Position numbers and translations under genes: made by a program. The notes under the pieces were generated by a model. The model was not told the DNA's origin. It made no database searches and saw only the letters and a program-made list of their open reading frames with translations. From NCBI RefSeq assembly GCF_003426945.1, contig NZ_QURO01000004.1, positions 1,723,501 to 1,787,500 on the forward strand: DNA of 64,000 bases, in the 5' to 3' direction. The DNA is from Thermus sediminis (lineage in GTDB: Bacteria > Deinococcota > Deinococci > Deinococcales > Thermaceae). Shown piece by piece: positions 41,642 to 60,238 of this stretch. The first letter of the stretch is position 1. Each line of letters opens with the position of its first letter.

Positions 41642-44446
41642 CTAGGGGCTTTCCAGCCCCTCCCGCCTCAGCCCCACAGGGGTGTGGGAGGTCCAGCCCA
41701 CGGGTAGGGGAAGCGGTTCGGCGTACCGCAGCAACACCGTCGGCTCCACGGGATAGCAGCCCATACCCTCGCCGTAGATGGCCAGGCCGCCCCGGTGGAC
41801 GGCGTTCCAGGGCACCTCGAGGCGGAGAACCAGGTGGCCCTGCTCCGCCAAACGATTTCGGATGGCCAGGCCCTCGGGGGAGTCCATGCGGATCTGGGCC
41901 TGCCTTAGGTAACCGTACGACCCCCCTTCGCGGCCGCGCCAGTGGGAAAGGACCCCGCAGGCGTCGGCGGGATCATCGGGAAGCTCCCAAGTGGCCACGT
42001 GCACCCCGTTGACGGAGACCTCCACGGTGGTGGGAAACGCCTTGCCCCCGGACTGGGGGTAGTCCTGAGGGTGCGGCCGCCCAGGCCAGTCCACCTTCTC
42101 CCGCCCGGCTTTGGCGGCGACCTCGCAGAGAAAGGTGAGGGATTCTGCCCCTTCCAGGGTAACGCCTTCGGGTAAGCGGAGCCGGTACTCCACAAACCCG
42201 TGCCCCCGACCGTAGTGCTTGCCCTCGAGGGGGGTTGGAGGTGCGGAGGCCTCGCTGAAGCGGCTTTCCCAGAAGTCCTCGGGGGCGAAGCGCAGGGCCA
42301 GGGTGCTGGCGTCCACCACCTCCACCCTGGGCAGGCCCCCCGTTTCCCGCACCCACCACTGCGTGTAGTTGGTGTGTACCCGCCCGGCCTCAGCGCCCTC
42401 TACCCAGGCCACGAGGGTTGCCAAGGCGGGTTCCTGCGGCAGCGTGAGGGGGATGGTCCCCAAGGGTGTCAGCCGGTAGGGAGGAAAGCGCGGACACTCC
42501 CTGGACTCCACCCGGCTCTCGCGCCAGTTGCCGAAGCGGTCCAGCCACCGCATCTGCCACCGGAGGGTCAGCCCTTCCTCGTGGCGGCCGCTCATGTGGC
42601 TAAAGAGCACGGGCACGTCCACCCTCTCTCCCGGGCGGGCCTGTTTGATGGCGGGTACATCCAGGACCAGGAAGTCCTCGGCGAATACATCCCGCACCGT
42701 CATGCCCGGGGCCCAGAACTCGTACCCGAAGCGCTTGGGGGAGCGGTCGTAGTTGTAGACGCCGTTGTGTTCCCATTCCACGTCGGTTAGCTGGGTGTAG
42801 GTGTAGCCCACCAGGCCTTCGCAACTCCGCAGGGCGTTGGCGTAGGAGAGCACCCCCCAGGAGATGTCCTCGTCCCCGTCCTCCGCGCTTACGTAGCCGA
42901 ACTCGTTGTTCACGAAAGGTTCGCCCCGTTGCCGGTAGCCCGGAAGGTAGTTCCACTCCTCTCCGGGCCTGAGGTGCTCCGCGCTGGCCTGGCGGCAGAG
43001 CTGCCGGGGAACCTCCGCATCCCGCCCGTACCAGTGGAAGGAGTTCAGGTCGGTGTCCAGGTGGGACCAGCCCGAGTTGTCGTGGACCAGCCGCGTGGGG
43101 TCCAGCCGGCGGGCCAGGCTGACCATCTCCAGGGCCCAGCCGATGCGGTGCTCTTCCGGAGCCTTTTCCGGGCTGCCAAGGCCCCACTCCTCATTGAAGA
43201 CCGTCCAGCAGAAGAGGCTCGGGTGGTTGAAGTCCCGCTCTACGAGTGCGCGCAGGGTTTGCGCAAAGGCTTTGCGGGCGCGCTGGGCGTTCTCGGGGGT
43301 GTAGGGGGCCCCGGGGTGGGTGAGGAGCCAGGTGTTGGGCAGGTCCTGCTGGACCAAAAGGCCCAGGCGGTCGGCCCAGTAGAGGCGGCGGGGCTCGTCG
43401 GCCTTGACGTGGATGCGGAGCATGTTGAAGCCTGCGGCCTTGGCCAGCTCCAGGTCCCTTCGCAAAAAGGCCTCGCTGGGGGCGGTGTAGAGGCCTTCGG
43501 GGTTGAAGGACTGGTCCAAGACCCCGCGCAGGTAGATGGGTTTGCCGTTCAGCAGGACAAAGCTGTACTCCCCAGCGTACCCCCCAAAGGCGATGGTACG
43601 TATGCCGAAATAGGTGCGGACGCGGTCGTAAACCCTGGACTTTGCCCCTCTTCCGGCGCGGAGCAGGATCTCCGCAGGGTAGAGGTGGGGGGCCTCGAGG
43701 CTCCAGAGGATGGGCTCGGGGACCCTGATCTCCAGTTCCATCTCCTCCTGGTCCGGCGCTGCCCTAGCCTCCGCGGTGGGAAACCGCCCTTCAGGGGAGC
43801 GTACCTGCACCCAGACCTCCCCGCTCCCTTCCTCTCCCCGGTCCAGCCGGATGGCGAACCGCACCCTTCCCGTGGGAAGGTGGTCCCGTCCCGCCAGGGG
43901 AAGGATGCGGAATCCCCGGATGGCCACCGGCCCCGTGGCCTCCAGCCAGACGGTCTGCCAGATGCCGCTCGTGGGGGTGTACCAGCCCACCTGCTTGCCC
44001 GTGGGCAGCACCGGGTCGGTGAAGTCGGCTACCCGGACGGTGAGCTGGTTGGGCATGGAGAAGCTCGCCTGTTGGGAGACATCCAAGCGGAACTCGCTGT
44101 AGCCGCCCGCGTGCTCCCCCACCTTTTCCCCGTTGAGCCAGACCGTGGCGTGCCAGTCCACCGCGCCAAAGCAAAGCCAAAGCCGCCTGCCCCTCCAGGC
44201 CTCGGGGAGGGCGAGGGGGCGCCGGTACCAGGCGACGCCCCTATAGCCCGTGCGCCCAAGGCCGCTAAGCCGGCTTTCCCAAGGAAAGGGCACCCGGATG
44301 CGCAAGGGGAAGGTGGGGGGAGAGGTGAACCATCCTCCCTCCATCCCGATGTTCTCTGGATCAAAGGCGAACTCCCAGATGCCGTTGAGGGTCTGCCACG
44401 CCGGGCGCTCCAGGTCGGGGCGGGGGTGTTCGGGCCGGGGGATCAC
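41642..44446 (-). CDS. GH2-family glycoside hydrolase (beta-galactosidase/beta-glucuronidase group)
   Basis: A 934-residue GH2 enzyme: N-terminal sugar-binding jelly roll (WYRRPLALPEAWRGRRLWL ... VWLNGEKVGEH), immunoglobulin-like domain, TIM barrel from about 300 with acid/base E419 (TVFNEEWG) and nucleophile E515 (FVNNEFGY), then about 350 residues of further beta domains. No signal peptide, so it acts in the cytoplasm. It starts with GTG about 8 nt after a TAAACT box and diverges from the deacetylase operon. Exact substrate unknown. Wording in GC and codons is slightly less extreme than in neighbouring housekeeping genes. Confidence 0.82.
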   Translation of the reverse strand: MIPRPEHPRPDLERPAWQTLNGIWEFAFDPENIGMEGGWFTSPPTFPLRIRVPFPWESRLSGLGRTGYRGVAWYRRPLALPEAWRGRRLWLCFGAVDWHATVWLNGEKVGEHAGGYSEFRLDVSQQASFSMPNQLTVRVADFTDPVLPTGKQVGWYTPTSGIWQTVWLEATGPVAIRGFRILPLAGRDHLPTGRVRFAIRLDRGEEGSGEVWVQVRSPEGRFPTAEARAAPDQEEMELEIRVPEPILWSLEAPHLYPAEILLRAGRGAKSRVYDRVRTYFGIRTIAFGGYAGEYSFVLLNGKPIYLRGVLDQSFNPEGLYTAPSEAFLRRDLELAKAAGFNMLRIHVKADEPRRLYWADRLGLLVQQDLPNTWLLTHPGAPYTPENAQRARKAFAQTLRALVERDFNHPSLFCWTVFNEEWGLGSPEKAPEEHRIGWALEMVSLARRLDPTRLVHDNSGWSHLDTDLNSFHWYGRDAEVPRQLCRQASAEHLRPGEEWNYLPGYRQRGEPFVNNEFGYVSAEDGDEDISWGVLSYANALRSCEGLVGYTYTQLTDVEWEHNGVYNYDRSPKRFGYEFWAPGMTVRDVFAEDFLVLDVPAIKQARPGERVDVPVLFSHMSGRHEEGLTLRWQMRWLDRFGNWRESRVESRECPRFPPYRLTPLGTIPLTLPQEPALATLVAWVEGAEAGRVHTNYTQWWVRETGGLPRVEVVDASTLALRFAPEDFWESRFSEASAPPTPLEGKHYGRGHGFVEYRLRLPEGVTLEGAESLTFLCEVAAKAGREKVDWPGRPHPQDYPQSGGKAFPTTVEVSVNGVHVATWELPDDPADACGVLSHWRGREGGSYGYLRQAQIRMDSPEGLAIRNRLAEQGHLVLRLEVPWNAVHRGGLAIYGEGMGCYPVEPTVLLRYAEPLPLPVGWTSHTPVGLRREGLESP

Positions 44447-44518
44447 CAGCCCAAAGTTTACAATGGGTTTGACCCTTTAAGGGGAGGAAATGTAACCTTG
44501 GGGCAAAAGGGGGGTAGC

Positions 44519-45310
44519 ATGAGCCTTCTAGAGCGGTTGGGGCTTTCCGGCAGGCGGGTCCTCATCCTCCACCACGACGACCTGGGCCTGACCCACGCCC
44601 AAAACGGGGCCTATCTGGCCCTGGGCTTTCCCACGGGGAGCGTCATGGTCCCCGGGGCCTGGGCGGGCGGGGTGCGGGGCCGGGACCTGGGGGTCCACCT
44701 GGTCCTCACCAGCGAGTGGCCCGCTCCCCGGATGCGCCCCCTCACGGAGGGTGAAAGCCTGAAGGATGAGGCAGGGTTCTTCCCTTCCTCTTTGGAGGCC
44801 CTTTGGCGAAGGGCCCGGGCGGAGGAGGTGGAAAGGGAGCTCAGGGCCCAGATAGAGGCCGCCAGGAGGCTCTTTACCCCCACCCACCTGGACACCCACC
44901 AGGGGGCGGTCCTGAGGCCGGATTTGGCCGAGGTCTACCTGCGCTTGGCCCAGGAGTACCGCCTGCCCGCCCTGGTTCCGGAGAGCCTCGAGGGCCTGGG
45001 CATCCCTAAGGCCTTCCTCCCCGACCTCCTCCGCCTGATGGAAAGGGCCCCCTTCCCCCGGGTGCGCTTCCTGGACCCCTACGGCCTTCCCCCCGAGGAG
45101 CGGCTTGGCTTCTACCTGGACCTCTCCCGGCTTCCCCCGGGGCTTTACCACCTGGTCCACCATGGCGCCCTGCCCACCCCCGAGGGCCGGGCCCTACCGG
45201 ACTGGGCTACCCGGGAGGCGGACTACTTCGCCCTAAGCCACCCCGAGGTCCGCCGGGTCCTCTCCGAGTTCCACCCCCTCACTTGGGAAGAGGTCGGGGA
45301 GACCTTATGA
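44519..45310 (+). CDS. ChbG/YdjC-like carbohydrate deacetylase
   Basis: A 263-residue YdjC-family protein. Metal-binding HHDDLGLTHAQN near the N-terminus and HLDTHQG (DTHQG) in the middle are the family motifs; ChbG removes acetyl groups from chitooligosaccharides. The true start is ATG 44519 with AAAGGGGGG upstream; a much longer open frame before it is a shadow of the GH2 gene. It overlaps the GPH transporter by ATGA. In this operon it probably deacetylates an imported oligosaccharide. Confidence 0.82.
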   Translation: MSLLERLGLSGRRVLILHHDDLGLTHAQNGAYLALGFPTGSVMVPGAWAGGVRGRDLGVHLVLTSEWPAPRMRPLTEGESLKDEAGFFPSSLEALWRRARAEEVERELRAQIEAARRLFTPTHLDTHQGAVLRPDLAEVYLRLAQEYRLPALVPESLEGLGIPKAFLPDLLRLMERAPFPRVRFLDPYGLPPEERLGFYLDLSRLPPGLYHLVHHGALPTPEGRALPDWATREADYFALSHPEVRRVLSEFHPLTWEEVGETL

Positions 45311-46560
45311 AGGCTTGGCGCTACGCCTCGGGGCAAATGGGTCTCACCATCGTTTCGGAGAGTTTTGGCACCTATCTGGCCTTTTTCTATCTGGAAAAGC
45401 TCGGGTTATCCGCTGCCTTTTATGCCCTTGCGCGTAGCCTGTATGCAATCTGGGACGCGGTGAACGATCCCCTTTTCGGCCACCTCTCCGACCGCACCAG
45501 GACCCCTTTGGGCCGCAGGCGGCCCTGGCTTCTCCTGGGCATTCCCCTTTTCCTCCTCTTCTACCTCCTGGTCTTCTGGGTTCCGGACTGGGCCAAGAGC
45601 CCGGAGGTGCTCCCCTATTACTTTGCCCTGGCCATCGTGCTCTATGAAACCGCGGCCACCGTGATCTGGACCAACTACGGTGCCCTTTTCCCGGAGATGT
45701 TCCGAGGCCTTTCGCACAGGGCCCAGGCCGCGGCCTTACAGCGGGGCACGGAGCTCTTTGGTCTCATCCTAGGTATCGCCCTGGCCCCGCTGATCTACGC
45801 CCAGTTTGGCTTTGCTGGCATGGCCCTCTTCTTCGCGGGATTGGCCCTCTTCGCCTTCCTCTTCTTCCTTTCGGGCGTGGAGGAGGACCCCAGGGCGGAA
45901 AGCGGGCTTGGACTTTTGCCCTCCTTCCGCCTGGTCCTCGGCAACGGGGCCTTCTGGGTGGCGGCCGTGGTGGGGCTTCTCTTTGAGTTCGGGCGCACGG
46001 TGATCCAGACGGCCATGGCCTTCTACGCCAAGCATAGTCTAGGGTTGCCCGAGGCGGCCACCACCCTCCTTTTCGCCGCCGTCTTCCTGGTGGCCCTGCC
46101 CTCGGTCTTCCTCTGGGGATGGCTTTCCCGGGCCCTGGGGGGGAAGCGGGCCTGGCGGCTAGCCCACCTCCTCATGGGCCTGAGCGCCCTCCTCCTCTTC
46201 CTGCCCCAAAGCCTCCTTCCCGCTCTCCTGGTGGGAGCCCTGGTGGGGGTGGGCTTCGCCGGGGTCCGGGTCACGGGGGCGGTGGTCATGGCCAAGGTCA
46301 TAGACCTGGACGCGGAGAGGACGGGCACCCGTAGGGAAGGGGCCTACTATAGCCTGGTGGGCTTCTTGGGGCGGGTCTCCGGGGCCTTGGTGGGCGCGGC
46401 CTTCCTCCTTTTGGGGCCCCTCTTCGGCTACGTGAGCGGGGAGAACCCGGGGCCCAACCCCGGCCTGGCCTTCCGCTTCCTCATCTCCGTGGTGCCGGGG
46501 GTGGCCATCCTCCTGGCCTTCCTCCTCACCGCCCTCTTCCCCCACGAGGTGCGGGAATGA
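45307..46560 (+). CDS. GPH-family sugar:cation symporter
   Basis: A 417-residue membrane protein with about 12 hydrophobic segments and the GPH signature DAVNDPLFGHLSDRTRTPLG with GRRRPWLLLG after helix 2. It imports glycosides with sodium or protons; substrates of relatives include melibiose, lactose, xylosides and glucuronides. Start ATG 45307 inside the deacetylase stop. Its TGA overlaps the GH31 ATG. Confidence 0.88.
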   Translation: MKAWRYASGQMGLTIVSESFGTYLAFFYLEKLGLSAAFYALARSLYAIWDAVNDPLFGHLSDRTRTPLGRRRPWLLLGIPLFLLFYLLVFWVPDWAKSPEVLPYYFALAIVLYETAATVIWTNYGALFPEMFRGLSHRAQAAALQRGTELFGLILGIALAPLIYAQFGFAGMALFFAGLALFAFLFFLSGVEEDPRAESGLGLLPSFRLVLGNGAFWVAAVVGLLFEFGRTVIQTAMAFYAKHSLGLPEAATTLLFAAVFLVALPSVFLWGWLSRALGGKRAWRLAHLLMGLSALLLFLPQSLLPALLVGALVGVGFAGVRVTGAVVMAKVIDLDAERTGTRREGAYYSLVGFLGRVSGALVGAAFLLLGPLFGYVSGENPGPNPGLAFRFLISVVPGVAILLAFLLTALFPHEVRE

Positions 46561-48917
46561 AGCCGGGACTCCGCTTTTGGCAAAGGGCCCTCCAGGCCCT
46601 CCGCTTTCTGGGCCCGGAGGGGACCCGGCGGGCCCTCCTCTACGCCCTTCTCCGGGACTCCTGGAACCGTAAGGAGCCCGCGCCCAAGTCCCCTTGGCGC
46701 CCCGTGGGCCCGCCCCAGGCCGTGGCGGCCATCCCGGGGGGCGGCCGCTTCCTCTTCCCCGAGGGGGAGCTGGAGGCAGTTTTCCTGGAGGGGGGGCTCC
46801 GCCTCACCTGGACCCCGGGCCGCCTCCCGCCCCCTTACGCCATAGAGAAAGCCCCGGCCCTCCTGGAGCCCGAGCGGGAGGGGGAGGGGGGGCGCTTTGT
46901 GCTGAGGGCGGGGGGCCTTCGCCTCGAGGTGGGGCCGGAGGGCCTCCTCTTCCTGGACGAAAGGGGGCGGGTGTGGCGGCGGGAGGCCCTGCCCGAGCGC
47001 CAAGGGGAGGCCTGGCGGCACCGGGTGGACCTGGCCCCGGGGGAGCGGCTCCATGGCCTTGGGGGGGTGGCGGCCCCTCTGGACCGCCGGGGCCGGGCCT
47101 ACCGCCTCTGGAACCGGGACGTGGGGGGGAGTTACGGCCCGGAGGAGGGCCCCTTGTACCTCACCCTGCCTCTCCTCCTCTCCCGCAAGCCAGGGGGCGG
47201 GTACCTGGTCTTCTACGAGAACCCTTACGAGGCCTCCCTGGACCTCCGCGGCGAAGCGGCTCTGGTGGCCTTTGCGGGCGGGGCCCTGAGGTACTACCTC
47301 TTTCCCGGAAAGCCCCAGGAGGCCCTGGCCGCCTACACCGCCCTCACGGGCAGGCCCCCCCTCCCGCCCCGCTTCGCCCTGGGCCTCCACTTTGCCCGCT
47401 GGGGCCTTAGGACGGAGGAGGAGGTGCGGGAGGTGGTGGAGGGGTTTTTCGCCCACGACCTCCCCCTTTCTGCCCTCCACCTGGACATAGACTACATGGA
47501 CGGCCACCGGGTCTTCACCGTGGACCGGGGGCGGTTTCCCCACCTGGAGGGGCTGGTGCGGGACCTGGAGGGGCGGGGGGTGCGCACGGTCCTCATCCTG
47601 GACCCCGGGGTCAAGGCCGAGGCCGGCTTTCCCCCCTTTGAGTCGGGCCTTAGGGAAGGCGTCTTCTGCACCCTTCCGGGAGGGCGCCTCCTCAAGGCCC
47701 CGGTGTGGCCGGGGTGGTGCGCCTTCCCCGACTTCACCAGCCCCAAGGCCCGGGCCTGGTGGGGGGAGCGGTGCGGGGAGCTCCTCGCCCTGGGCGTCCA
47801 AGGCTTCTGGCTGGACATGAACGAGCCCGCGGCCTTCGCCGCCTGGGGGGACCCCACCCTGCCCAAGCCCACCCGGCACGCCCTCGAGGGCCAGGAGGGG
47901 GACCACCGTGAGGCCCACAACCTCTACGGCCTCCTCATGGCCCGGGCCACCCACGAGGCCCTGCGGGCGCGGGGCGTGGCCCGGCCCTTCCTCTTCTCCC
48001 GCTCCGGCTGGGCGGGCCTGGCCCGCTACGCCTGGAACTGGACGGGGGACGTGGAGAGCAGCTGGGAGGCCCTGCGGCGCACCGTGGGCATCGTCCTGGG
48101 GCTTGGGCTTTCCGGGGTACCCTACACAGGCTCGGACATCGGGGGCTTCAGCGGCCACCCCTCCCCCGAGCTCTTCCTGCGCTGGTTCCAGGCCGCGGCC
48201 TTCATGCCCTTCTTCCGCCTCCACTCCGCCATCTCCACCCCCAGGCGGGAGCCCTGGCGCTTCGGCGAGCCCGTGCTCTCCATCCTGCGGAACTTTGCGC
48301 GGCTTCGCCAGGCCCTCATCCCCTACCTCTACACCCTGGCCTGGGAGGCCCGGGAGAAGGGCTACCCCCTGGTCCGCCCCCTCTTCTTCCTGGACCCCGA
48401 GGGGGAGGCAGAGGACGCCTTTCTCCTGGGGGATGCCCTCCTCGTGGCCCCGGTGGTGGAGGAGGGGGTGCGCCACCGCCTGGTCCCCTTGCCCAGGGGC
48501 CTCTGGTATGACTTCTGGAGCCACCGCCTGGTGGAGGGGCCCGGGGAGGTCTTTGCCGAGGCGCCCTTGGAGCGCATCCCCCTCTTCGTGCGGGCGGGCG
48601 CCGCCTTGCCCCTGGCAGAGGGGGAGGGCCTGGTCCTCCACCTCTACCCGGGGCCGGAGGGCCGGGCCGAGGGGGTTCTCTACTGGGACGAGGGGGATGG
48701 GGAGGGGCCTTCCCGGCTGGACCGCTTCCTCCTGGAGGGGGGGCGGCTCCTGTGGCAGGGGGAGGGGGCTTACCCCTGGCCCTGGGAGGGGCTTGGGCTT
48801 CGCCTGCACGGGGCCAGGCTCAAGGGGGGAAGGGTGGGGGACGCGTTCTATCCTGTTCAGGACGGGCTTCTCCGCCTTCCCCCTTTTCTTGAAGCGTTTT
48901 TGGAGGTGGAGGGATGA
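46557..48917 (+). CDS. GH31-family alpha-glucosidase/alpha-xylosidase
   Basis: A 786-residue GH31 enzyme with nucleophile D420 (GFWLDMNEPAAF) and acid/base D498 (NWTGDVESSW); GLSGVPYTGSDIGGF and the DIDYMDG barrel motif are the usual GH31 elements. No signal peptide. The FLFSRSGWAG stretch fits alpha-glucosidases. It overlaps both neighbours by ATGA. Specificity between alpha-glucoside and alpha-xyloside is undecided. Confidence 0.88.
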   Translation: MKPGLRFWQRALQALRFLGPEGTRRALLYALLRDSWNRKEPAPKSPWRPVGPPQAVAAIPGGGRFLFPEGELEAVFLEGGLRLTWTPGRLPPPYAIEKAPALLEPEREGEGGRFVLRAGGLRLEVGPEGLLFLDERGRVWRREALPERQGEAWRHRVDLAPGERLHGLGGVAAPLDRRGRAYRLWNRDVGGSYGPEEGPLYLTLPLLLSRKPGGGYLVFYENPYEASLDLRGEAALVAFAGGALRYYLFPGKPQEALAAYTALTGRPPLPPRFALGLHFARWGLRTEEEVREVVEGFFAHDLPLSALHLDIDYMDGHRVFTVDRGRFPHLEGLVRDLEGRGVRTVLILDPGVKAEAGFPPFESGLREGVFCTLPGGRLLKAPVWPGWCAFPDFTSPKARAWWGERCGELLALGVQGFWLDMNEPAAFAAWGDPTLPKPTRHALEGQEGDHREAHNLYGLLMARATHEALRARGVARPFLFSRSGWAGLARYAWNWTGDVESSWEALRRTVGIVLGLGLSGVPYTGSDIGGFSGHPSPELFLRWFQAAAFMPFFRLHSAISTPRREPWRFGEPVLSILRNFARLRQALIPYLYTLAWEAREKGYPLVRPLFFLDPEGEAEDAFLLGDALLVAPVVEEGVRHRLVPLPRGLWYDFWSHRLVEGPGEVFAEAPLERIPLFVRAGAALPLAEGEGLVLHLYPGPEGRAEGVLYWDEGDGEGPSRLDRFLLEGGRLLWQGEGAYPWPWEGLGLRLHGARLKGGRVGDAFYPVQDGLLRLPPFLEAFLEVEG

Positions 48918-50962
48918 AGCTGGAAAGGGCGCTGTTTCTGTCCCATCCGGCCCAGGACCCCGGGGGGCTTCCCGGGGAGGGGTGGCGGGAGGTGGCCCTG
49001 CCCCACCAGTGGAGCCTCGAGGGCCTGGAGGCCGAGGTGGGCTGGTACCGCCTCCAGGTGCCCGAGGTGGGGCCAAGGCGCTTCCTGCGCCTTTGGGGGG
49101 ATTACTCCCAGGAGGCCTGGCTGGAGGGGGCCTACCTGGGGCGGCACGAGGGGTACTTCTTCCCCTGGCTCTTGGAGCTTCCCCCGGGGCGGGAGCTCCT
49201 CCTCCGGGTCTCGGCCCCCAAGGAGCCCCTGGGCCAGTGGCCCCGCTTCAAGCGGCAGATCAAGGGGGTCTTGGGCCAGCACGACTGCCGCCCCGGGGGG
49301 AACACGGAGAGGGGGCAGGAGCGGGGCACCGGGGGGCTTTGGGGCGGGGTGGAGCTTTGGGTCCGGGAGGAGGTGGCCCTCCTGGCCCTCACCCACCGCC
49401 TTCACCGGACCCCCAAGGGCTGGCGGCTCCTGGTCCAGTTCCTGGTGGACGCTCCCCGGGCCTTCCAGGAGGAGGTTGAGCTCCGCCTCCTTCCGGAAAA
49501 CTTCCCCGGGGAGGCCCTGGAGAAGGCGGCGCCCTTGCGGGGGGATGGGGGGCGGGCCTGGCTTGGGGTGGTTTGGGACCTGCCGGAGATGCCCCTTTGG
49601 GAGGTGTGGGAGCGGGGCTTCCCCCACCTTTTCCGCCTCGAGGCCCAGGTGGCCGGGGCTTCCCTTGCTGTCCCCTTGGGCTTTCGCACCGTAGAGGTGG
49701 ATGGGGAGGGTTGGCTCCTCCTGAACGGGAGCCGCCTCTTCCTCCGGGGCACCAACCTCATCCCCACCCAGTGGCTTGCGGCCTACGGCGAGGAGGCGGC
49801 CCAGAAGGACGCGGCCCTCCTCAAGGAGGCCCACCTGAACGCCGTGCGGGTCCACGCCCACGTGACCCACCCCGCCTTCTACCGGGCCTGCGACCGGGAG
49901 GGGATCCTGGTCTGGCAGGACTTCCCCCTGCAGTGGGGGTACGCCCCCGACGAGGCCTTCGCAAAGGAGGCCCTGCGCCAGGTCCGGGCCATGGTGGACC
50001 TTCTGGGGGCCCACCCCTCCATCTACCTCTGGTGCGCCCAGAACGAGCCCACCCACAACCGCCACACCCTGGGCCCCCTCCTCCTTGCGGCCCTGAAGGA
50101 GGCGGACCCCACCCGCCCCGCCAAGGAGGCCTCGGACTTCCGGGAGCACCCCTACCCTGGCTGGTACTATGGGCACCACCGGGACTTCCTGGCCCTCCCC
50201 GGGGCCCCCCTGCCCTCGGAGTTCGGGGCCCAGGCCCTGCCCCGGGCGGAGCTTCTGAGGCGGGTCCTGGGGGAGGCCGCCTGGCCGCCCAAGTGGGAGG
50301 TCTGGGCCTACCACAACTTCCAGCCCCACGAGACCTTCCGCGTGGCGGGGGTGGAGGTGGGGGAGAGCCTCGAGGCCTTCGTGGAAAGCTCCCAGGCCTA
50401 CCAGGCGAAGCTCTTGGAGTTCGCCATCCACGCCTACCGCCGGGCCAAGGGTAGGGTGGTGGGCTACTTCCAGTTCATGTTCGTGGAGCCCTGGGAGGGG
50501 ATCACCTGGGCGGTCTTGGACGTGGAGCGCGTCCCCAAGAGGGGGTACTTCGCCCTCAAGGAGGCCAGCAGCCCCGTCCTCCTCTCCCTGGTGCCCTTCC
50601 GGGAAAGGCTGGAGGTGGGCGGGCCGCCCCTCATGGAGGCCTGGCTGGTGAGCGACCTGCCCCGGCCCCTCACCCTGCGGGTGCTCCTCTGGCTGGAGGG
50701 GGAGGAAAGGCTCCCCTTGTGGGAAGGGGAGGTGGTCCTGGGGCCGGCTGAAGCGCGGCGCTTCTTCCACCTCATGGAGCTTTGGGAGGCCCCCCTAGAG
50801 GGGCAGGACTCCCTGGCTCCCTTGCGGGAGGCCCTGGGGAGGCTTTCCCCCGGGGCCTACCGCTTGGTGGGGGAGGCCTGGGAGGGGGAGAGGCGTTGGT
50901 CCCGGCACGAGGTGGCCCTCACCTACCTGCCCCCCCTTCTTCCTCTGGGGGTGGCCTGGTAG
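48914..50962 (+). CDS. GH2-family beta-mannosidase-like hydrolase
   Basis: A 682-residue GH2 protein, compact for the family (beta-mannosidases usually exceed 750). Acid/base E378 (WCAQNEPTHN) and nucleophile E436 (LPSEFGAQALP) are present, with the N-terminal jelly roll shortened. RGTNLIPTQW and ILVWQDFPLQWG resemble beta-mannosidases and exo-glucosaminidases. With a deacetylase gene in the same operon, an exo-beta-D-glucosaminidase activity is a real alternative. Last gene of the ATGA-coupled operon. Confidence 0.78.
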   Translation: MKLERALFLSHPAQDPGGLPGEGWREVALPHQWSLEGLEAEVGWYRLQVPEVGPRRFLRLWGDYSQEAWLEGAYLGRHEGYFFPWLLELPPGRELLLRVSAPKEPLGQWPRFKRQIKGVLGQHDCRPGGNTERGQERGTGGLWGGVELWVREEVALLALTHRLHRTPKGWRLLVQFLVDAPRAFQEEVELRLLPENFPGEALEKAAPLRGDGGRAWLGVVWDLPEMPLWEVWERGFPHLFRLEAQVAGASLAVPLGFRTVEVDGEGWLLLNGSRLFLRGTNLIPTQWLAAYGEEAAQKDAALLKEAHLNAVRVHAHVTHPAFYRACDREGILVWQDFPLQWGYAPDEAFAKEALRQVRAMVDLLGAHPSIYLWCAQNEPTHNRHTLGPLLLAALKEADPTRPAKEASDFREHPYPGWYYGHHRDFLALPGAPLPSEFGAQALPRAELLRRVLGEAAWPPKWEVWAYHNFQPHETFRVAGVEVGESLEAFVESSQAYQAKLLEFAIHAYRRAKGRVVGYFQFMFVEPWEGITWAVLDVERVPKRGYFALKEASSPVLLSLVPFRERLEVGGPPLMEAWLVSDLPRPLTLRVLLWLEGEERLPLWEGEVVLGPAEARRFFHLMELWEAPLEGQDSLAPLREALGRLSPGAYRLVGEAWEGERRWSRHEVALTYLPPLLPLGVAW

Positions 50963-50970: not shown

Positions 50971-51975
50971 ATGGACCTAGAGGCCTGGAGCCGCTTGCGC
51001 CGCTTCATGGAGGCAAAGGGGTTGGGCCGCTTCCATGTGGCCCGGCCGGAGAACTTCGCCTGGCTTTTGGGCGGGGAGAACACCCTGGGGATGGGGGAGG
51101 GGGTGGCCTACCTGGAGGTGGGGGAGGAGGTGATTCTCCACACGAGCGCCATAGAGCACCCCCGTATGGTGGAGGAGGAGGCCCCGGGCCTTCCGGTTAA
51201 GGTCCATCCCTGGTACGCCTTCCCCTCGCCGGGAAGCCCCAACGACCTGGAGCACGACCTCACCCCCTTGCGTCTGGTCCTTTCCCCCAAGGCTCAGGGG
51301 GTCTTCCGCGAGCTAGGGCGGGAGGCGGCCTCCGCCTTCGGGGAGGCGGTGGGCCAGGCCCGGACGGATTGGAAGGAGTACCAGCTGGCTGGGGCCCTGG
51401 CGGAGACCCTCTAGGGGCGGGGCCTCCGCCCCCTCTTGCTTTTGGTGGCAGGGGAGGAAAGGCTCTTCCGCCACCGCCACCCCCTGCCCAAGGACCGCCC
51501 CTTGGGCCGGGCCTTCATGGCGGTGGCCTGTGCCTCCCGGGGGGGGTTGGTGGCCAACCTGACCCGGATGGTGGCCCTGGGCCGCCCCGAGGTGGAGGCC
51601 CGCTATCGCCGGGTTCTGGAGGTGGAGCGGGTGGCCCTAGAGGCTTCTCGTCCTGGGGCCACCCTAGGCGGGGTCCTGGCTGCCATCCAGGGGGCCTACG
51701 GGGAGGTGGGTTTCCCCGGGGCCTGGGAGGAGCACCACCAGGGGGGCGTGGGCGGGTACCGCTCCCGGGAGGTCTTGGCCACGCCGGGCCACCCGCTGGC
51801 CTTGGAGGTGGGCATGGCCGTGGCCTGGAACCCGAGCTTAGCGGGGGCTAAGGTGGAGGACACCTTTCTCCTCACGGAGGAGGGCCTCTTGAACCTCACG
51901 GAGGACCCTTTTTGGCCCCAGGTGGCGATCGGGAGTAGGAGGCGGCCTGACCTCCTACGCCACCTCCAGGGTTAG
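50971..51975 (+). pseudogene. M24-peptidase-like protein interrupted by one in-frame TAG
   Basis: The frame from ATG 50971 encodes an aminopeptidase P-like N-terminal domain, meets TAG at 51412-51414 after AETL, then continues in the same frame to 51975 with a pita-bread-like domain (EEHHQGGVGGY, AWNPSLAGAKVEDTFLL). Codon use is the same on both sides; a TGG to TAG change would restore about 334 residues. Several M24 metal ligands (the DxTR Asp reads N in ANLTR) are also altered, so even the intact form may be non-catalytic. It overlaps convergent deoR-type gene by 21 nt. Confidence 0.7.
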
Positions 51976-52728
51976 GCCAGCATTCTTCAGGGCCTCGAGG
52001 GCCTCGGGGCGCGCCTTTTTGTCGGTGATGAGCAGGGTGGCGGCCGAAAGGGGAGCGATCTTGGCGGCGGCTACCTGGAGGAGCTTAGAGTGGTCTGCCA
52101 GGAAGTAGACCTCCCGGGCGGCCCGCGCCATGGCCTTTTTGATCTCGGCCTCCTCCAGGTTGGTATTGGTGAAGCCTCGCTCGGGGTGGACTCCGTTGCA
52201 TCCCAAGAAGGCCTTGTCCGCGTTCAGTTCCTCCAGAAGGAGGGTGCCGAAGGGGTTCACCAGGGAGTGCTGGAGGGGCCTTAGCCTCCCTCCGGTGACG
52301 ATCACGGTGACGCCGGGGTGGTTTTCCAGGAGGAGGGCGATGTTGAGGGCGCTGGTGATGACCACCACGTCCTTGAGGCTTGGGGAGAGGGCCTTGGCCA
52401 CCTCGGTAGTGGTGCTGCCCACGTCCAGGATCACCACGTCCCCGTCCTTGACCAGGCCCGCCGCCCGCTTGCCGATGGCCTCCTTTTCCCGGGCGTGGAC
52501 CGCACGGGTGACCTCCAGGGGAAGCTCAAAACGGCGGGCCTCCCAGGGAACAGCCCCCCCCCTGAGACGCCTTAGGAGGCCCTGGCGTTCCAGGGCCTCG
52601 AGGTCGGCCCGCACCGTCACCTGGGAGACCCCAAAGGTCTTAGCCAGGTCAGCCACCTGCACCTGGCCGTTTTGCCGGAGGAGGGCAAGGATTTTCTCTC
52701 GCCGGGCTTGGGTTTCCAGGGTGGACAT
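51955..52728 (-). CDS. DeoR-family transcriptional regulator
   Basis: A 257-residue DeoR-type repressor: N-terminal helix-turn-helix (RREKILALLRQNGQVQVADL, SQVTVRADLEALE) and a DeoRC sugar-phosphate-binding domain (ILDVGSTTTEVAKAL, VIVTGGRL, LGCNGV, FLADHSK). It diverges from the ABC transporter-galactosidase operon, whose promoter carries an inverted repeat, so it probably represses that operon and itself until a phosphorylated sugar is made. Confidence 0.9.
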   Translation of the reverse strand: MSTLETQARREKILALLRQNGQVQVADLAKTFGVSQVTVRADLEALERQGLLRRLRGGAVPWEARRFELPLEVTRAVHAREKEAIGKRAAGLVKDGDVVILDVGSTTTEVAKALSPSLKDVVVITSALNIALLLENHPGVTVIVTGGRLRPLQHSLVNPFGTLLLEELNADKAFLGCNGVHPERGFTNTNLEEAEIKKAMARAAREVYFLADHSKLLQVAAAKIAPLSAATLLITDKKARPEALEALKNAGLTLEVA

Positions 52729-52746: not shown

Positions 52747-52814
52747 TTTCTTTTATCTTGCGGAAGCTTGTGAAAACGGCAGACTTGACAAGCAAAAGAA
52801 GGTAAGCGTAAAAT
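52747..52814 (+). promoter_or_regulatory. Promoter and candidate DeoR operator of the galactoside operon
   Basis: Perfect TTGACA (52785-52790), 18-bp spacer and TAAAAT (52809-52814), followed by AAAGGAGG and the ATG at 52848. An inverted repeat has arms TTTCTTTTATCTTG (52747-52760) and CAAGCAAAAGAAGG (52789-52802); the second arm covers the end of the -35 and the spacer, as expected for a repressor site. The region is far more AT-rich than average. Confidence 0.7.
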
Positions 52815-52847: not shown

Positions 52848-54119
52848 ATGAAGGCGAGACTTTTGGCACTGGTGCCCCTTCTCGGTTTGGCTTGGGGGCA
52901 GAGCATGGCCTTAAGGGGCGAGATCACGGTCTGGAGCTGGGACATCGCTGCCAAGGCCCTCGAGGCGGTGGTCCCCAGCTTCAACAGGCTTTACCCCAAC
53001 GTCAGGGTTAGGGTGGTGGACCTGGGGAACCAGCAGGTCTTTGACCGAGGGCTAGCGGGATGCGCAGCTGGGGGAAGGAACCTCCCCGACGTCTACTCGG
53101 TGGAGAACAACGAAGCCGAGGTTTTCTGGAGCCGTTTCCCTAACTGCTTCACTGACCTGACCACCTTCGGGGCTAACCAGCTGCGGAACGACTTCCCCGA
53201 GTTCAAGTGGACTGAGCTTACCATGGGCAACAGGATTTTCGCCATCCCCTGGGACTCTGGTCCGGTGGTCGTCTTCTACCGGCGCGACCTGTACCAGAGG
53301 GCAGGAATTGACCCCAGCAGGATTGAAACCTGGGATGAATTCATTGAAGCTGGCAGGAGGATGCTCCAGGTCACTGGGGGCAGGGTGAGGATGGGTACCA
53401 TCGCCAATGGTCAGGACGATGAGTGGTTCCGCATGCTGGCCAACCAGAACGGCTGCTTCTACTTCAATAACCAGGGCACCGCCGTTACCGTAAACCAACC
53501 TGGCTGCGTGAGGGCCTTGGAGACCATCAAGAAGCTGGTGGATGCCGGCGTGGTGGCCTTTGGCGGCTGGAACGAGCAGATCCAGTACTTCAGGGCCGGC
53601 GCTGTGGCCAGCGCCATGTTCGGCGCCTGGTACGAGGGCACCATTCGCACCAACGCCCCAGACCAAGCGGGTAATTGGGGAGTCTTCCTCATGCCGGCTT
53701 CGCAGAGAGGGGGCGTGCGGGCGGCTAACCTCGGGGGCTCAGCCCTAGCCATTCCCGCCAGCAGCAGGAACAAGGAGGCGGCTTGGGCCTTTGTGAGGCA
53801 TGCCCTGGCCACCACCGAGGGGCAGATCACCATGCTCAGAGAGTACGGTCTGGTCCCCTCCTACCTGCCCGCCCTGAACGACCCCTATGTGAGGCAACCC
53901 CAACCCTATTGGGGAAACCAGCCCATCTGGCAGCTAGTCCTGGGCACCCTGGGCAGGATTCCGCCCGCCCGGGGCACCCAATACTTTCAGGAGGCTAGGC
54001 AGATCTTGACCGCCGTTCAGGTGGACTTCCTGGCGGGTAGGTATAGGACTGCCGAAGAAGCCCTGGACGCCGCAGCCAGACAAATCAGCCGGGCCACAGG
54101 ACTGCCCATCGCCAGGTAG
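52848..54119 (+). CDS. Sugar ABC transporter substrate-binding protein
   Basis: A 423-residue extracytoplasmic binding protein. The N-terminus is a signal peptide (MKARLLALVPLLGLAWG, cleavage near 17-21) without a lipobox Cys. ITVWSWDIAAKALEAVVPSFNRLYPNVRV and GNRIFAIPWDSGPVVVFYRRDLY are typical of carbohydrate uptake 1 family binding proteins. It has more AGG, ATT and GAA codons and lower GC than neighbours. First gene of the operon, with a strong Shine-Dalgarno; a stem-loop after it may raise its level over the permeases. Confidence 0.9.
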   Translation: MKARLLALVPLLGLAWGQSMALRGEITVWSWDIAAKALEAVVPSFNRLYPNVRVRVVDLGNQQVFDRGLAGCAAGGRNLPDVYSVENNEAEVFWSRFPNCFTDLTTFGANQLRNDFPEFKWTELTMGNRIFAIPWDSGPVVVFYRRDLYQRAGIDPSRIETWDEFIEAGRRMLQVTGGRVRMGTIANGQDDEWFRMLANQNGCFYFNNQGTAVTVNQPGCVRALETIKKLVDAGVVAFGGWNEQIQYFRAGAVASAMFGAWYEGTIRTNAPDQAGNWGVFLMPASQRGGVRAANLGGSALAIPASSRNKEAAWAFVRHALATTEGQITMLREYGLVPSYLPALNDPYVRQPQPYWGNQPIWQLVLGTLGRIPPARGTQYFQEARQILTAVQVDFLAGRYRTAEEALDAAARQISRATGLPIAR

Positions 54120-54126
54120 GTTCTTT

Positions 54127-54153
54127 GGGGCCGCGGGTCTGTACTGCGGCCCC
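54127..54153 (+). terminator. Stem-loop between binding protein and permease genes
   Basis: GGGGCCGC, 11-nt loop, GCGGCCCC: a perfect 8-bp stem with no T-run, 12 nt before the permease ATG. Likely a leaky terminator or RNA-stabilising hairpin, common after binding-protein genes. Confidence 0.6.
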
Positions 54154-54164
54154 GCCCTTCCCCC

Positions 54165-55013
54165 ATGCGCACCAAGGCCCCCCTCTTTTTCCTCGCCCCC
54201 TACCTCTTTCTCTTCGGCCTCTTTTGGGCGTGGCCCATCCTTTACTCCTTCTACCTCTCCTTCCTTAACACCCGGGTTTATCCTTGGCACCTTGATCCCG
54301 GGGTGAACTGGAGCCGTCTCCTCCAGGACCCCTTTTTCTTCGTGGCCCTCAAGAACACCCTCTTCATCCTGGTGGTCCAGGTGCCCCTGATGCTGGTCTT
54401 AGCCTTGTTGCTGGCCTTAGCCTTGAACTCCGCCCTTCTACGCCTGAAGGGGTTCTACCGTTTTGCCTTTTTCGCCCCAGTGGTGGTGGGGGCTGTGGCT
54501 TACTCCGCCATTTTCCGCCTCCTCTTCAACACCGAGTTTGGCGCGGTCAACGCCTTCCTCCAGGCCCTAGGCCACCCAGGGTACGACTGGCTTTACGCTC
54601 CTGGTCCTGCCATGGCGGTAATCGTTATCGCCCTTACCTGGCGCTGGACGGGCTACAACGCCATCATCCTCCTGGCGGGGCTTCAGAGCATTCCCCGGGA
54701 GCTTTACGAGGCCGCCTCCTTGGATGGGGCAAGTCCCTGGCAGCAGTTTTGGCATGTGACCCTTCCTGGCCTGCGCCCGGTACTTTTGTTTGCCCTGGTC
54801 TTATCCATTATTGGCACGCTGCAGCTTTTCACCGAACCCTTCCTCATCACCGGAGGAGGGCCGGGAAACGCCACCATGACTTTGGGACTTTACCTTTACC
54901 AACAGGGCTTTCGCGGCTTCAACTTCGGGTATGCCTCGGCCATCGCCTACACGGTGGCCCTGCTGGCGGCGGGGTTTTCCTTTATGCAGATGCGCCTTTG
55001 GAGGGAGCGGTGA
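54165..55013 (+). CDS. Sugar ABC transporter permease (MalF/LacF type)
   Basis: A 282-residue inner-membrane permease with six hydrophobic helices. The EAA loop that contacts the ATPase reads ELYEAASLDGASPWQQFWHV before TLPGL. Its TGA overlaps the GTG of the second permease. The ATPase is not encoded in the operon, so a shared MsiK/MalK-type ATPase elsewhere is expected. Confidence 0.92.
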   Translation: MRTKAPLFFLAPYLFLFGLFWAWPILYSFYLSFLNTRVYPWHLDPGVNWSRLLQDPFFFVALKNTLFILVVQVPLMLVLALLLALALNSALLRLKGFYRFAFFAPVVVGAVAYSAIFRLLFNTEFGAVNAFLQALGHPGYDWLYAPGPAMAVIVIALTWRWTGYNAIILLAGLQSIPRELYEAASLDGASPWQQFWHVTLPGLRPVLLFALVLSIIGTLQLFTEPFLITGGGPGNATMTLGLYLYQQGFRGFNFGYASAIAYTVALLAAGFSFMQMRLWRER

Positions 55014-55840
55014 AAAGGAAACGTTTTTGGCTTTCCATAGGTCTGCACGGGCTTCTGACCCCTCTTGCCCTGCTTTGGCTGGCTCCTCTCTGGCTTATGC
55101 TGGTCTTCTCCACCCTGCCTGAGCACGAGATCTTCCGGGTTCCCACGCCCCTCCTGCCTGGGGAAAGGTTTTTGGAGAACTTGGCAGGCCTGCAAGCCGA
55201 TACCAACTTTTTCCGGGCCATGGCGAATAGTGTGGTGGTTTCCCTTCTCTACACCCTGGGGGGGCTTCTCCTCAGCGCCTCGGCGGGGTACGCTCTAGCT
55301 GTCTACCGCTTCCGCCTACAGGCCCTTGTTTTCTCCTTAATCGTAGCCACCCTAACCATCCCCTACTTCGTGGTCCTCATCCCCCAGTACATCCTCGTGG
55401 CCCGGGAGCTGAACCTCGCCAACACCTACTGGGGGGTAGTCCTTCCCTTCCTGGCTAACGCCTTGGGGGTTTTCTACATGCGCCAGGTCTTCCTCTCCCT
55501 GCCTTCTTCCCTTTTAGATGCAGCGCGCGTGGATGGGGCCAGCGAGGGCCGGATCTTTTTCCAGATCGCCCTTCCCATGGTGACCCCATCCCTAGCCGCC
55601 TTAGCCTTGATCCTTTTCCTAACCGCCTGGAATGACTACCTCTGGCCCCTTTTGGTCCTTTCTGAGAGGGAGATGTACACCGCCCCCGTTGCCTTGGGCA
55701 CCCTGATCGGCCTCACCCGGGTTTCCTGGGGTGGGATCATGGTGGGCTCGGTGCTGATGACACTCCCTTTCCTCGTGCTCTTTTTATTCTTGCAGCGCTA
55801 CTTCGTGGCGGGCATCACCGCTGGCGCAGTGAAGGAGTGA
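55010..55840 (+). CDS. Sugar ABC transporter permease (MalG/LacG type)
   Basis: A 276-residue permease starting VKRKRFW from GTG 55010 (GTGA overlap). The EAA motif is LLDAARVDGASEGRIFF before QIALP; six membrane helices. It pairs with the preceding permease; the next gene starts 3 nt downstream. The open frame upstream to 54749 is not used. Confidence 0.92.
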   Translation: MKRKRFWLSIGLHGLLTPLALLWLAPLWLMLVFSTLPEHEIFRVPTPLLPGERFLENLAGLQADTNFFRAMANSVVVSLLYTLGGLLLSASAGYALAVYRFRLQALVFSLIVATLTIPYFVVLIPQYILVARELNLANTYWGVVLPFLANALGVFYMRQVFLSLPSSLLDAARVDGASEGRIFFQIALPMVTPSLAALALILFLTAWNDYLWPLLVLSEREMYTAPVALGTLIGLTRVSWGGIMVGSVLMTLPFLVLFLFLQRYFVAGITAGAVKE

Positions 55841-55843
55841 GGC

Positions 55844-57781
55844 ATGTTGGGAGTCTGCTATTATCCGGAGCACTGGCCCAAGGTGCACTGGAAGGAAGAC
55901 GCTAGACGGATGCGGGAACTCGGGCTAAGCTACGTGCGCCTTGGGGAGTTCGCCTGGGCCCTCCTCGAGCCTGAACCTGGGCATCTGGACTGGTCCTGGC
56001 TGGACGAGGCCCTGGCCACCCTGGCGGGAGAGGAGCTAAAGTTGGTGCTAGGTACCCCTACGGCCACGCCCCCCAAGTGGCTGGTGGACCGGTACCCAGA
56101 GATTCTCCCCGTGGACCGGGAGGGGAGGAGGCGGAGCTTCGGAGGCAGACGGCACTACTGCTTTTCTAGCCCCGCATACCGGGAGGAGGCCCAGCGGATC
56201 GTGACCCTCCTGGCGCAACGTTACGGGAGCCATCCGGCCGTGGTCGGCTTCCAGACGGACAATGAGTACGGCTGCCACGGCACCGTGCGTTGCTACTGCC
56301 CGCGCTGCCGTGCGGCTTTCCAAAGGTGGCTGGCGGACCGATACGGGGAGGTAGAGGCCCTGAACCGGGCTTGGGGGACAGCCTTTTGGAGCCAGCGCTA
56401 CCGGGGCTTCACCGAGGTGGAACTTCCCCACCTCACCGTGGCGGAGGCCAACCCCAGCCACCTCCTGGACTACTACCGCTTTGCCTCGGACCAGGTGAGG
56501 TCCTTCAATCGCCTGCAGGTGGAGATCTTGCGGGCCCACGCCCCGGGGAGGTTTGTCACCCACAACTTCATGGGCTTCTTCACCGACCTGGACCCCTTCG
56601 CCCTGGCCCAGGACCTGGACTTCGCCAGCTGGGACAGCTACCCCCTCGGTTTCACCGACCTGATGCCCCTGCCCCCAGAGGAGAAGCTCCGCTACGCCCG
56701 CACTGGCCACCCTGATGTGGCCGCCTTCCATCATGACCTCTATCGGGGGGTGGGGCGGGGACGGTTCTGGGTGATGGAGCAGCAGCCAGGTCCCGTGAAC
56801 TGGGCTCCACACAACCCGAGCCCTGCCCCTGGCATGGTGCGGCTTTGGACCTGGGAGGCCCTGGCCCATGGAGCAGAGGTGGTCGCCTACTTCCGCTGGC
56901 GGCAGGTGCCCTTTGCCCAAGAGCAGATGCACGCGGGGCTTAACCGTCCCGATTACGCCCCCGATCTGGCCTTTTTTGAGGCTAAGAAGGTAGCGGAGGA
57001 GCTAGAGGGCCTAGACCTCCCTTCCCTCAGGCAGTCCCCGGTGGCCTTGGTCTATGACCCGGAGGCGGCGTGGGTCTATGAGATCCAGCCCCAAGGGGCG
57101 GAGTGGAGTTATCTGGGCTTGGTCTACCTCTTCTACGGTGCCCTTAGGCGCTTGGGCTTGGACGTGGATTTTCTCCCCCCGGGGGCCTCGCTACAGGGCT
57201 ACCCCCTGGTGGTGGTGCCCAGCCTACCCCTTGTGGGTGGCGAGGCTCTTAAGGCCTTCAAGGGAGCGGATGGCCTGGTCCTCTTTGGTCCCAGGAGCGG
57301 GAGCAAGACCAAGACTTTTCAGATTCCCCCTGAGCTTCCCCCGGGATCGCTTCAAGAGTTCCTTCCCCTCAAGGTGGTGCGGGTGGAAAGCCTGCCCCTA
57401 GACCTCAGGGAGAGGGTGGAGGGATCCTTGGGGGTCTACGCCCTGGGGCTTTGGCGCGAGTGGGTGGAAAGCCCCTTGGAGCCCCTCCTACGGTTTTCGG
57501 ATGGCTGGGGGGCCCTGTTCCGCTCAGGGCGCTACCTTTACCTGGCAGCCTGGCCCTCAGCGGAGCTTCTGGGGGCGCTCCTTGCCCTTTTGGCGGGGGA
57601 GGTGGGGCTTCCCGTGAGGCTTTTGCCGGAAGGGCTTCGGCTGAGGCGACGGGGACCTTGGGTCTTCGCCTTCAACTACGGCCCCCAGGCGGTGGAGGCG
57701 CCTGCTCCTAGAGAGGCGCGGTTCCTCCTTGGGGAAAGGTGGATTCCGCCCTACGACCTTGCGGTATGGGAGGAGGGATGA
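55844..57781 (+). CDS. bgaT: Beta-galactosidase (GH42)
   Basis: A 645-residue GH42 enzyme very close to Thermus sp. A4 beta-galactosidase. Acid/base E141 (QTDNEYG) and nucleophile E312 (WVMEQQPG) have the A4 numbering, as do the zinc-site cysteines C106, C150, C152 and C155. The trimerisation and C-terminal beta domains follow the barrel. Cytoplasmic. Begins 3 nt after the permease and overlaps the alpha-galactosidase by ATGA. It removes terminal beta-galactose from imported galactosides. Confidence 0.94.
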
Positions 57782-59208: not shown

Positions 59209-60238
59209 ACGCCACCACCGCAAGGCCGACGGGCGGGAGCTCATCCTCTACGGCCTCGCCCCCCTCGAGGACTCCCCCCTCCCCGAGCCCGCCGAGCCCT
59301 TCCGCGCGGCTCCCCACCTGCGTTACCACCCCTTAAGGCAGGAGTGGGTGGTCTACGCCGCCCACCGCCAGGAGCGCACCTTCCTTCCCCCAAAGGAGCA
59401 CTGCCCCCTCTGCCCAGGCCGGGAAGGTGGCTTCCCCACGGAGATCCCCTTCCCCAGCTTCCAGGTGGCCGTCTTTGAGAACCGCTTCCCCTCCCTAGTG
59501 CCAGACCCTCCCGCCCCGCCCGAGGGGCCTCCCGTGGCCGTGGGGGAGGCCTCTGGCCGGTGCGAGGTGGTGGTCTACACGGAGGCCCACGCTGGAAGCC
59601 TGGCCTCCCTCTCCGAGGAGGAGAGGCTCCTCCTCGCCTGGGTCTGGCGGGAGCGGTACCAGGCCCTCTACGCCCTAGAGGGGGTGCGCTTCGTCATGCC
59701 CTTTGAGAACCGGGGGGAGGCGGTGGGGGTCACCCTCCACCATCCCCACGGGCAGATCTACGCCTACCCCTTCGTGCCCCCAGTCCTGGAGCGGGAGGGC
59801 CAGGCCTTCCGGGAGCGGGGGGTCCTCCTGGAGCTTTTCCCCCACCTCGGGCCCTATGCGGTGGACGAGGAGGAGGGCTTTCTCGCCTTTGTTCCCCCCT
59901 TTGCCCGCTACCCCTTTGAGGTCTGGGTGGCTCCCAGGGAGCGCCACCCCGGCCCCTGGACCTTTAGCGAGGGGGAGATGGCTGCCTTCGCCCGCCTCCT
60001 GGGCCGGGTGGTGGCCCGGTACGATGCCCTCCATGGGGAACCCTTCCCTTACGTCATGGTCTTCCACGCTGCCCCCCTCGGGGAGGAGCGCACCTTCCAC
60101 TTCCACGTGGAGTTCTACCCACCAAGGCGCAATCGCGACAAGCTCAAGTTCCTGGCGGGCACGGAGCTGGGGGCGGGGACCTTTGTGGTAGACGCCTTGC
60201 CGGAGGAGACGGCGGGGCTTTTACGGGAGGCGTTATGA
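59192..60238 (+). CDS. galT: Galactose-1-phosphate uridylyltransferase
   Basis: Leloir pathway enzyme exchanging galactose-1-phosphate with UDP-glucose. Active-site [10 protein letters not shown] contains the UMP-binding His; zinc ligands are likely in EHCPLCPGR. 348 residues from ATG 59192. The galactokinase and epimerase genes needed beside it are not in the window. It overlaps glpK by ATGA. Confidence 0.94.

Follow-up and report, generated by a model that had tools for sequence, protein, structure and literature searches.

A conserved deacetylase, symporter and glycosidase operon of Thermus sediminis with a putative role in the intracellular use of an acetylated glycoside

Which sugar is served by a set of tightly coupled genes that joins a predicted carbohydrate deacetylase to a sugar symporter and two glycoside hydrolases (GH) in Thermus sediminis? 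The genes lie in a window of 64,000 nucleotides (contig NZ_QURO01000004.1, positions 1,723,501 to 1,787,500 of the forward strand; genome G000, 2.16 Mb), and window coordinates are counted from its first letter. They are a real, conserved operon for glycoside use, and their enzymes are of known kinds. We think it somewhat probable that the operon serves to import a small glycoside with an N-acetylated amino sugar and to use it inside the cell, as part of a galactose/galactofuranose glycan locus. The operon and the gene that diverges from it are as follows:

44519–45310, plus strand: YdjC/ChbG-family carbohydrate deacetylase, TTHB029-like, 263 amino acids (aa) (PF04794, NF052308, PDB match, residues)
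45307–46560, plus strand: GPH-type (MelB-like) sugar:cation symporter, 417 aa (PF13347)
46557–48917, plus strand: GH31 enzyme, alpha-glucosidase-like, 786 aa (PF01055; nucleophile D420 and acid/base D498 motifs)
48914–50962, plus strand: compact GH2 enzyme, 682 aa, TaGH2/TbGH2 orthologue of subfamily GH2_15 (PF02836 barrel; acid/base E378, nucleophile E436)
41642–44446, minus strand: GH2 group III enzyme, 934 aa, predicted beta-galactofuranosidase/alpha-L-arabinofuranosidase type (acid/base E419, nucleophile E515, T551)

The architecture described in an earlier, sequence-only reading of this DNA, namely four ATGA-coupled genes with a further GH2 gene diverging alongside, is borne out: the four genes share one strand, a 4-base ATGA overlap is found at all three junctions, and the families are confirmed by hidden Markov models. 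The start codons of the divergent GH2 gene and the deacetylase gene are separated by 72 bases. The metal and catalytic residues of ChbG are defined in PMC9402603, the available text of which describes the crystallised TTHB029 (PDB 2E67) as a ChbG homologue that keeps these residues in a narrower active site. The window deacetylase aligns with TTHB029 over its full length (E 4e-149), and its D20, D21, H60, H127 and H215 (H214/H215) are invariant in 18/18 aligned sequences; it scores 107.4 bits with PF04794 (YdjC, cut-off 29.7) and 430.8 bits with the carbohydrate deacetylase model NF052308 (cut-off 400). Deacetylase activity is accordingly a family-based prediction. The symporter scores 223 bits with PF13347 (MFS_2, cut-off 27) and 157.9 bits with TIGR00792, below the cut-off of 231.35. 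The GH31 enzyme scores 371.6 bits with PF01055 and 431.8 bits with the MalA equivalog NF040948, below its cut-off of 800; it carries the aspartate motifs WLDMNE (D420) and WTGD (D498), which we take to be the GH31 nucleophile and acid/base motifs.

By simple hydropathy, a signal-like hydrophobic N-terminus occurs in none of the cluster enzymes and is present in the solute-binding protein of the ABC importer encoded downstream, so import would come first and cleavage would follow inside the cell. This pattern fits the earlier statement that no secreted polysaccharidase is present, and it supports the proposed sequence of import, intracellular deacetylation and glycosidic cleavage. The proposal of an acetylated amino-sugar oligosaccharide as the likely substrate class is also supported, since membership in the YdjC family would imply an N-acetylated amino sugar. 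In the scheme that we favour, the GPH symporter would import the glycoside, the divergent GH2 enzyme would begin by removing the capping residue, a terminal beta-galactofuranose (or alpha-L-arabinofuranose), the YdjC-family deacetylase would strip the acetyl group in the cytoplasm, and the compact GH2 enzyme, as a broad beta-glucosidase/beta-galactosidase, would split the linkages there together with the GH31 enzyme. The unit would be part of a larger galactose-glycan locus with GH36, GH42, galT and glpK–glpD.

We surveyed 50 Thermaceae genomes for these genes and compared 20 locus stretches for gene order. The deacetylase gene is found at full length in 21 of the 50 genomes and the compact GH2 gene in 18, all of them within the 21 (18 genomes with both, three with the deacetylase only, none with the compact GH2 only and 29 with neither); these genomes are related, not independent, and the association is descriptive. 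Fragmentary deacetylase genes (G002, G040, G042 and G043), fragmentary compact GH2 genes (G027 and G044) and distant GH2 matches of 30–37% were counted as absent. Operon fragments persist in G027, G040, G042, G043 and G044, and the operon looks to have been lost repeatedly in the family. All 21 full deacetylase genes adjoin a symporter gene or, in one case (G036), its remnant. The same site, after ddl, is occupied by deacetylase–symporter–compact GH2 or by this trio with GH31 (the window and G035), while seven Thermus genomes have the order deacetylase–symporter–group III GH2–GH31–compact GH2. GH36 is then present in 6/7 of these group III-containing operons, with an intact second symporter gene between in five; the second symporter is fragmentary in G030 and broken in G048, where the examined stretch has no GH36 gene. 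The genes stand in a different order in G038, and two Calidithermus genomes have the run DeoR–ABC–GH42–deacetylase–GPH–GH36–galT. The deacetylase, symporter and compact GH2 genes are also adjacent in Thermanaerothrix daxensis, with identities of 63, 59 and 44%. Deacetylase, symporter and compact GH2 are thus a conserved unit whose gene order is beyond chance.

The constancy of the deacetylase as a partner in this unit counts against the plainest account of the locus, in which alpha- and beta-galactosides and glucosides of plants or algae are scavenged and the deacetylase is incidental. The GH36, GH42 and galT genes nearby would suit such an account, as would the activity of compact GH2 orthologues on beta-glucosides and beta-galactosides (available text of PMC4453472), but we consider it very unlikely.

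The compact GH2 enzyme is tied to cloned Thermus enzymes by primer matches. The published tbgh2 primers match exactly both ends of the orthologue in G029, which is 79% identical to the window copy and lies inside a deacetylase–symporter–compact GH2 operon, and compact GH2 orthologues in several genomes carry a match to the tagh2 reverse primer at their 3′ end; the window enzyme is on this evidence an orthologue of characterised GH2_15 Thermus members. In the available text of PMC4453472, TaGH2 and TbGH2 prefer para-nitrophenyl (pNP)-beta-glucoside over pNP-beta-galactoside and are inactive on the other nitrophenyl substrates assayed, including mannoside and glucuronide. In contrast to these two enzymes, pTsbg (690 aa) is described in the available part of PMC7794327 as being without beta-glucoside activity; it cleaves ortho-nitrophenyl-beta-galactoside (ONPG) and pNP-beta-fucoside but is inactive on lactose. 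A subfamily study from 2025 (PMC12243196, available in part) assigns the characterised Thermus enzymes to GH2_15 and describes residue signatures.

The sequence-only reading had offered beta-mannosides and beta-glucosaminides as substrates of the compact GH2 enzyme, and neither agrees with its residues. At the position of the loop-2 Trp that marks the GH2_13 beta-mannosidases, His314 aligns with the Trp of 5n6u and 2vjx, and the orthologues are inactive on pNP-beta-mannoside (PMC4453472, as available). The signature of the GH2_16 exo-beta-glucosaminidases is an SD acid/base motif with a loop-2 Glu (available text of PMC12243196); the window enzyme keeps NE at 377–378 and has RVHAH at 312–316. 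Judged by these signatures, it belongs neither with the GH2_13 beta-mannosidases nor with the GH2_16 glucosaminidases. The GH2_15 activities given in the available text of PMC12243196 include beta-N-acetylhexosaminidase, so the compact GH2 enzyme may still possess an amino-sugar activity. In the overall interpretation of the earlier reading, then, the architecture and the intracellular route for an acetylated oligosaccharide stand, the specificity of the compact GH2 enzyme is probably wrong, and both the furanosidase group of the divergent GH2 enzyme and the larger galactose/glycerol locus were missed.

The missing SD and Glu also bear on a more specific route, in which GlcNAc disaccharides would be deacetylated and then cleaved, like the archaeal Dac–GlmA or the bacterial ChbG–ChbF route. 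A deacetylase–symporter–beta-glycosidase trio kept across phyla speaks for this route, and Dac–GlmA gives it a precedent (PMC6566704, as available), but the compact GH2 enzyme is without the glucosaminidase signature and nagA and nagB had no match in the genome (controls were detected; the search did not extend to kinases or to other deaminases), and we hold the route to be doubtful. The failure to find nagA and nagB leaves the fate of the released amino sugar unexplained and weighs also against our favoured use of an imported N-acetylated glycoside, as do several further points. In many species the operon core is found without GH31 or group III GH2, so these two would be accessories. T. daxensis has the sole full trio among ten further loci found outside the Thermaceae, and in the DNA examined for the other nine the deacetylase relative is accompanied by neither a compact GH2 nor a symporter relative (there is a glpK relative in two and a GH36-like match in one, and several are on short contigs). 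Finally, we infer the substrate, the order of the steps and the furanosidase and deacetylase activities.

The favoured scheme gives the divergent GH2 enzyme the role of removing a furanosyl cap. Its best matches among PDB sequences are the beta-D-galactofuranosidase 9j6n/9j6m (E 2e-73), with 7xyr matched as well, and the available text of PMC12243196 assigns both to GH2 group III, in which the known activities are on furanosides and Thr replaces the loop-8 Trp. T551 of the window enzyme takes this position, aligned with the Thr of 9j6n and invariant in 8/8 sequences, as in GH2_18 and GH2_19. This places the enzyme by its residues in group III, the furanosidase group, and activity on beta-galactofuranosides or alpha-L-arabinofuranosides is predicted. 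In a 21-row tree, a branch with 100/99 support parts the divergent GH2 enzyme from the seven in-cluster group III enzymes of Thermus, and the enzyme lies nearer to those group III proteins of other Deinococcota that have long open frames; it sits on a long terminal branch (1.07), and its exact placement is unsure. The tree may be read to mean that a group III GH2 gene was recruited to this locus twice, in separate events. Across the phylum, 35 of 111 genomes have group III relatives (E up to 1e-40). An in-cluster enzyme may already have been assayed: Tsbg of T. scotoductus (574 aa, annotated as a beta-galactosidase) is inactive on ONPG and lactose in the available text of PMC7794327, and its length, with an accession next but one to that of pTsbg, suggests that it is such an enzyme. 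It would then not be a galactopyranosidase, and its lack of activity on ONPG and lactose would be expected. Structure prediction for the two GH2 proteins gave unusable models (mean predicted local distance difference test scores of 39 and 50, from alignments of 3 and 8 rows).

The divergent GH2 enzyme ends in a domain that resembles the C-terminal half of ArsR-type helix-turn-helix proteins of other Deinococcota (tblastn E 5e-12). A profile built from six such regulators matches the enzyme at E 8e-11, and none of 2000 shuffles was reported at E<=10. The six regulators lie within the examined flanks of group III GH2 genes, two of the loci being from the same genus, and the helix-turn-helix is confirmed by Pfam in four of them. 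Searches of Pfam, NCBIfam and PDB sequences returned no match for the domain, for which we suggest a role in sugar sensing or binding. The domain and the regulator genes are:

41690–42184 of the window, minus strand: C-terminal domain (about residues 755–919) of the divergent GH2 enzyme (tblastn, profile search)
L178, 3976–4959: ArsR-type regulator
L175, 1722–2714: ArsR-type regulator
L159, 8983–10062: ArsR-type regulator
L160, 8040–9050: ArsR-type regulator
L172, 3542–4549: ArsR-type regulator
L177, 12612–13778: ArsR-type regulator

The functional neighbourhood of the operon reaches 63257 and contains the following genes:

50971–51975, plus strand: M24-family peptidase gene with an in-frame TAG (51412–51414) that splits it (Pfam)
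51955–52728, minus strand: DeoR-family regulator, AgaR-like below the cut-off (NF040755, 195 bits, cut-off 260)
52848–55840, plus strand: sugar ABC importer, a solute-binding protein with two permeases (Pfam scan of the binding protein and first permease)
55844–57781, plus strand: GH42 beta-galactosidase (PF02449, 523 bits)
57778–59208, plus strand: GH36 alpha-galactosidase (PF02065, 70.6 bits)
59192–60238, plus strand: galT, galactose-1-phosphate uridylyltransferase (PF01087/PF02744)
60235–61725, plus strand: glpK, glycerol catabolism (Pfam)
61722–63257, plus strand: glpD, glycerol catabolism (Pfam)

GH42 and GH36 overlap by ATGA, GH36 and galT by 17 bases, galT and glpK by ATGA, and glpK and glpD by GTGA. 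In relatives, GH36, galT, glpK and glpD continue in one run with the operon, and together with GH42 they point to galactose and glycerol as additional products. A dependence of glpK–glpD on the deacetylase operon is weakened by the adjacency of galT and glpK even in genomes that have lost the deacetylase gene or retain fragments of it; galT itself is present in 49 of the 50 family genomes. The T. sediminis genome holds three glpK copies that are 99–100% identical (C4:1783735, C4:1293411 and C3:70427), and the copy on contig C3 has a 99% identical glpD alongside, next to a second GH31 gene and ABC genes. A gene for UDP-galactopyranose mutase, glf, is located at C4:804693–805295 and is present in 17 of 27 Thermus genomes. 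A tie between endogenous galactofuranose synthesis and group III GH2 is unsupported, glf being present in 5/8 Thermus genomes with the enzyme vs 12/19 without it.

This neighbourhood invites two further explanations. In the first, the locus would dismantle the glycolipid headgroup Galf(b1-2)Galp(a1-6)GlcN-acyl(b1-2)Glc(a1-)glycerol from dead Thermus cells: group III GH2 would release the galactofuranose, GH36 the alpha-galactose, the YdjC enzyme would deacylate the glucosamine, compact GH2 would cleave GlcN-b-Glc and GH31 Glc-a-glycerol, with GalT using the galactose and GlpK/GlpD the glycerol. NGL-C, a neutral glycolipid of T. thermophilus HB8 with the headgroup Galf(b1-2)Galp(a1-6)GlcN-acyl(b1-2)Glc(a1-3)glycerol (PMC3398001, as available), has residues that pair off singly with the enzymes, and its breakdown would call once on each glycosidase in the locus except GH42; the single GH36–galT–glpK–glpD run and the second glpK–glpD pair on C3 agree with this. 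However, the glucosamine carries a C15/C17 fatty acid as its N-acyl group, an unlikely cargo for a GPH symporter or substrate for a ChbG-like enzyme, the glycerol genes may be neighbours that belong to the site with or without the operon, as the distribution of galT–glpK indicates, and glf does not go with group III GH2. We regard this salvage as decidedly unlikely, and its fullest form, in which the whole of 41.6–63.3 kb serves a Thermus-type glycosylglycerol headgroup and a galactofuranosidase-type GH2 was recruited twice, here fused to an ArsR-associated ligand-binding domain, as highly improbable. In the second explanation, the substrate would be an oligosaccharide of a Galf/Galp/GalNAc exopolysaccharide from biofilms, such as that of T. 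aquaticus TA-1, which according to the available text of a review (PMC11433292) has galactofuranose, galactopyranose and N-acetylgalactosamine. Group III GH2, GH36/GH42 and the deacetylase would fit such a source, with the regulator AgaR-like below the cut-off, but the cluster has no polysaccharide depolymerase and the GH31 and glycerol genes would go unexplained; we judge it unlikely.

Some observations concern expression and the flanking genes. A scan for consensus promoters gave no hit in the divergent intergenic stretch (44447–44518) and one strong promoter-like site at 52785–52814, ahead of the ABC genes; terminator-like sites are rarer than in shuffled sequence. Upstream of the deacetylase gene, an inverted repeat of 12–15 bases is found in L122, L125, L126, L127 and L130, its right arm coinciding with the ribosome-binding region and its loop containing a -10-like hexamer. 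The pattern CCTTTCC...GGAAAGG has one match in L122 vs 0.01 expected and no match in the T. sediminis window. The repeat is a possible operator. The reading frame of the split M24 peptidase gene is uninterrupted over 327–333 residues in the relatives G025, G003 and G004.

Should the use of an imported acetylated glycoside prove correct, it would supply a physiological role for the crystallised TTHB029 and for Thermus GH2 enzymes that are already cloned. Tsbg, set aside for want of beta-galactosidase activity, would be worth retrying on galactofuranosides, and the locus would offer a source of thermostable galactofuranosidases along with a list of substrates that can be tested directly. A search of the open-access literature found no paper on the operon as a unit, a weak negative given that subscription journals are mostly outside its coverage. 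The alpha-galactosidase locus of T. brockianus has reportedly been the subject of a paper.

Known systems resemble parts of this locus. Beta-D-galactofuranosidase 2 (9j6n/9j6m, GH2_18), presumably from a Streptomyces-type organism, aligns with residues 3–569 of the divergent GH2 enzyme and shares the NE motif, R-x-H-x-K and the loop-8 Thr, whereas the window enzyme lacks a signal-like N-terminus and has an extra C-terminal domain. In the ChbG–ChbF route, ChbF acts in the glycosidic cleavage that follows deacetylation. By analogy, the same order of deacetylation ahead of cleavage links the predicted pathway to this route and to Dac–GlmA of Thermococcus, although the enzyme families are different, GlmA being a GH35 enzyme (available text of PMC6566704). 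TTHB029 of T. thermophilus HB8 (PDB 2E67) matches the window deacetylase over its full length but is known as a structure and is termed a hypothetical protein in the available part of PMC9402603. TaGH2, TbGH2 and pTsbg of GH2_15, studied as lone enzymes in papers whose available portions do not discuss the operon or the deacetylase, are orthologues of the window compact GH2 enzyme.

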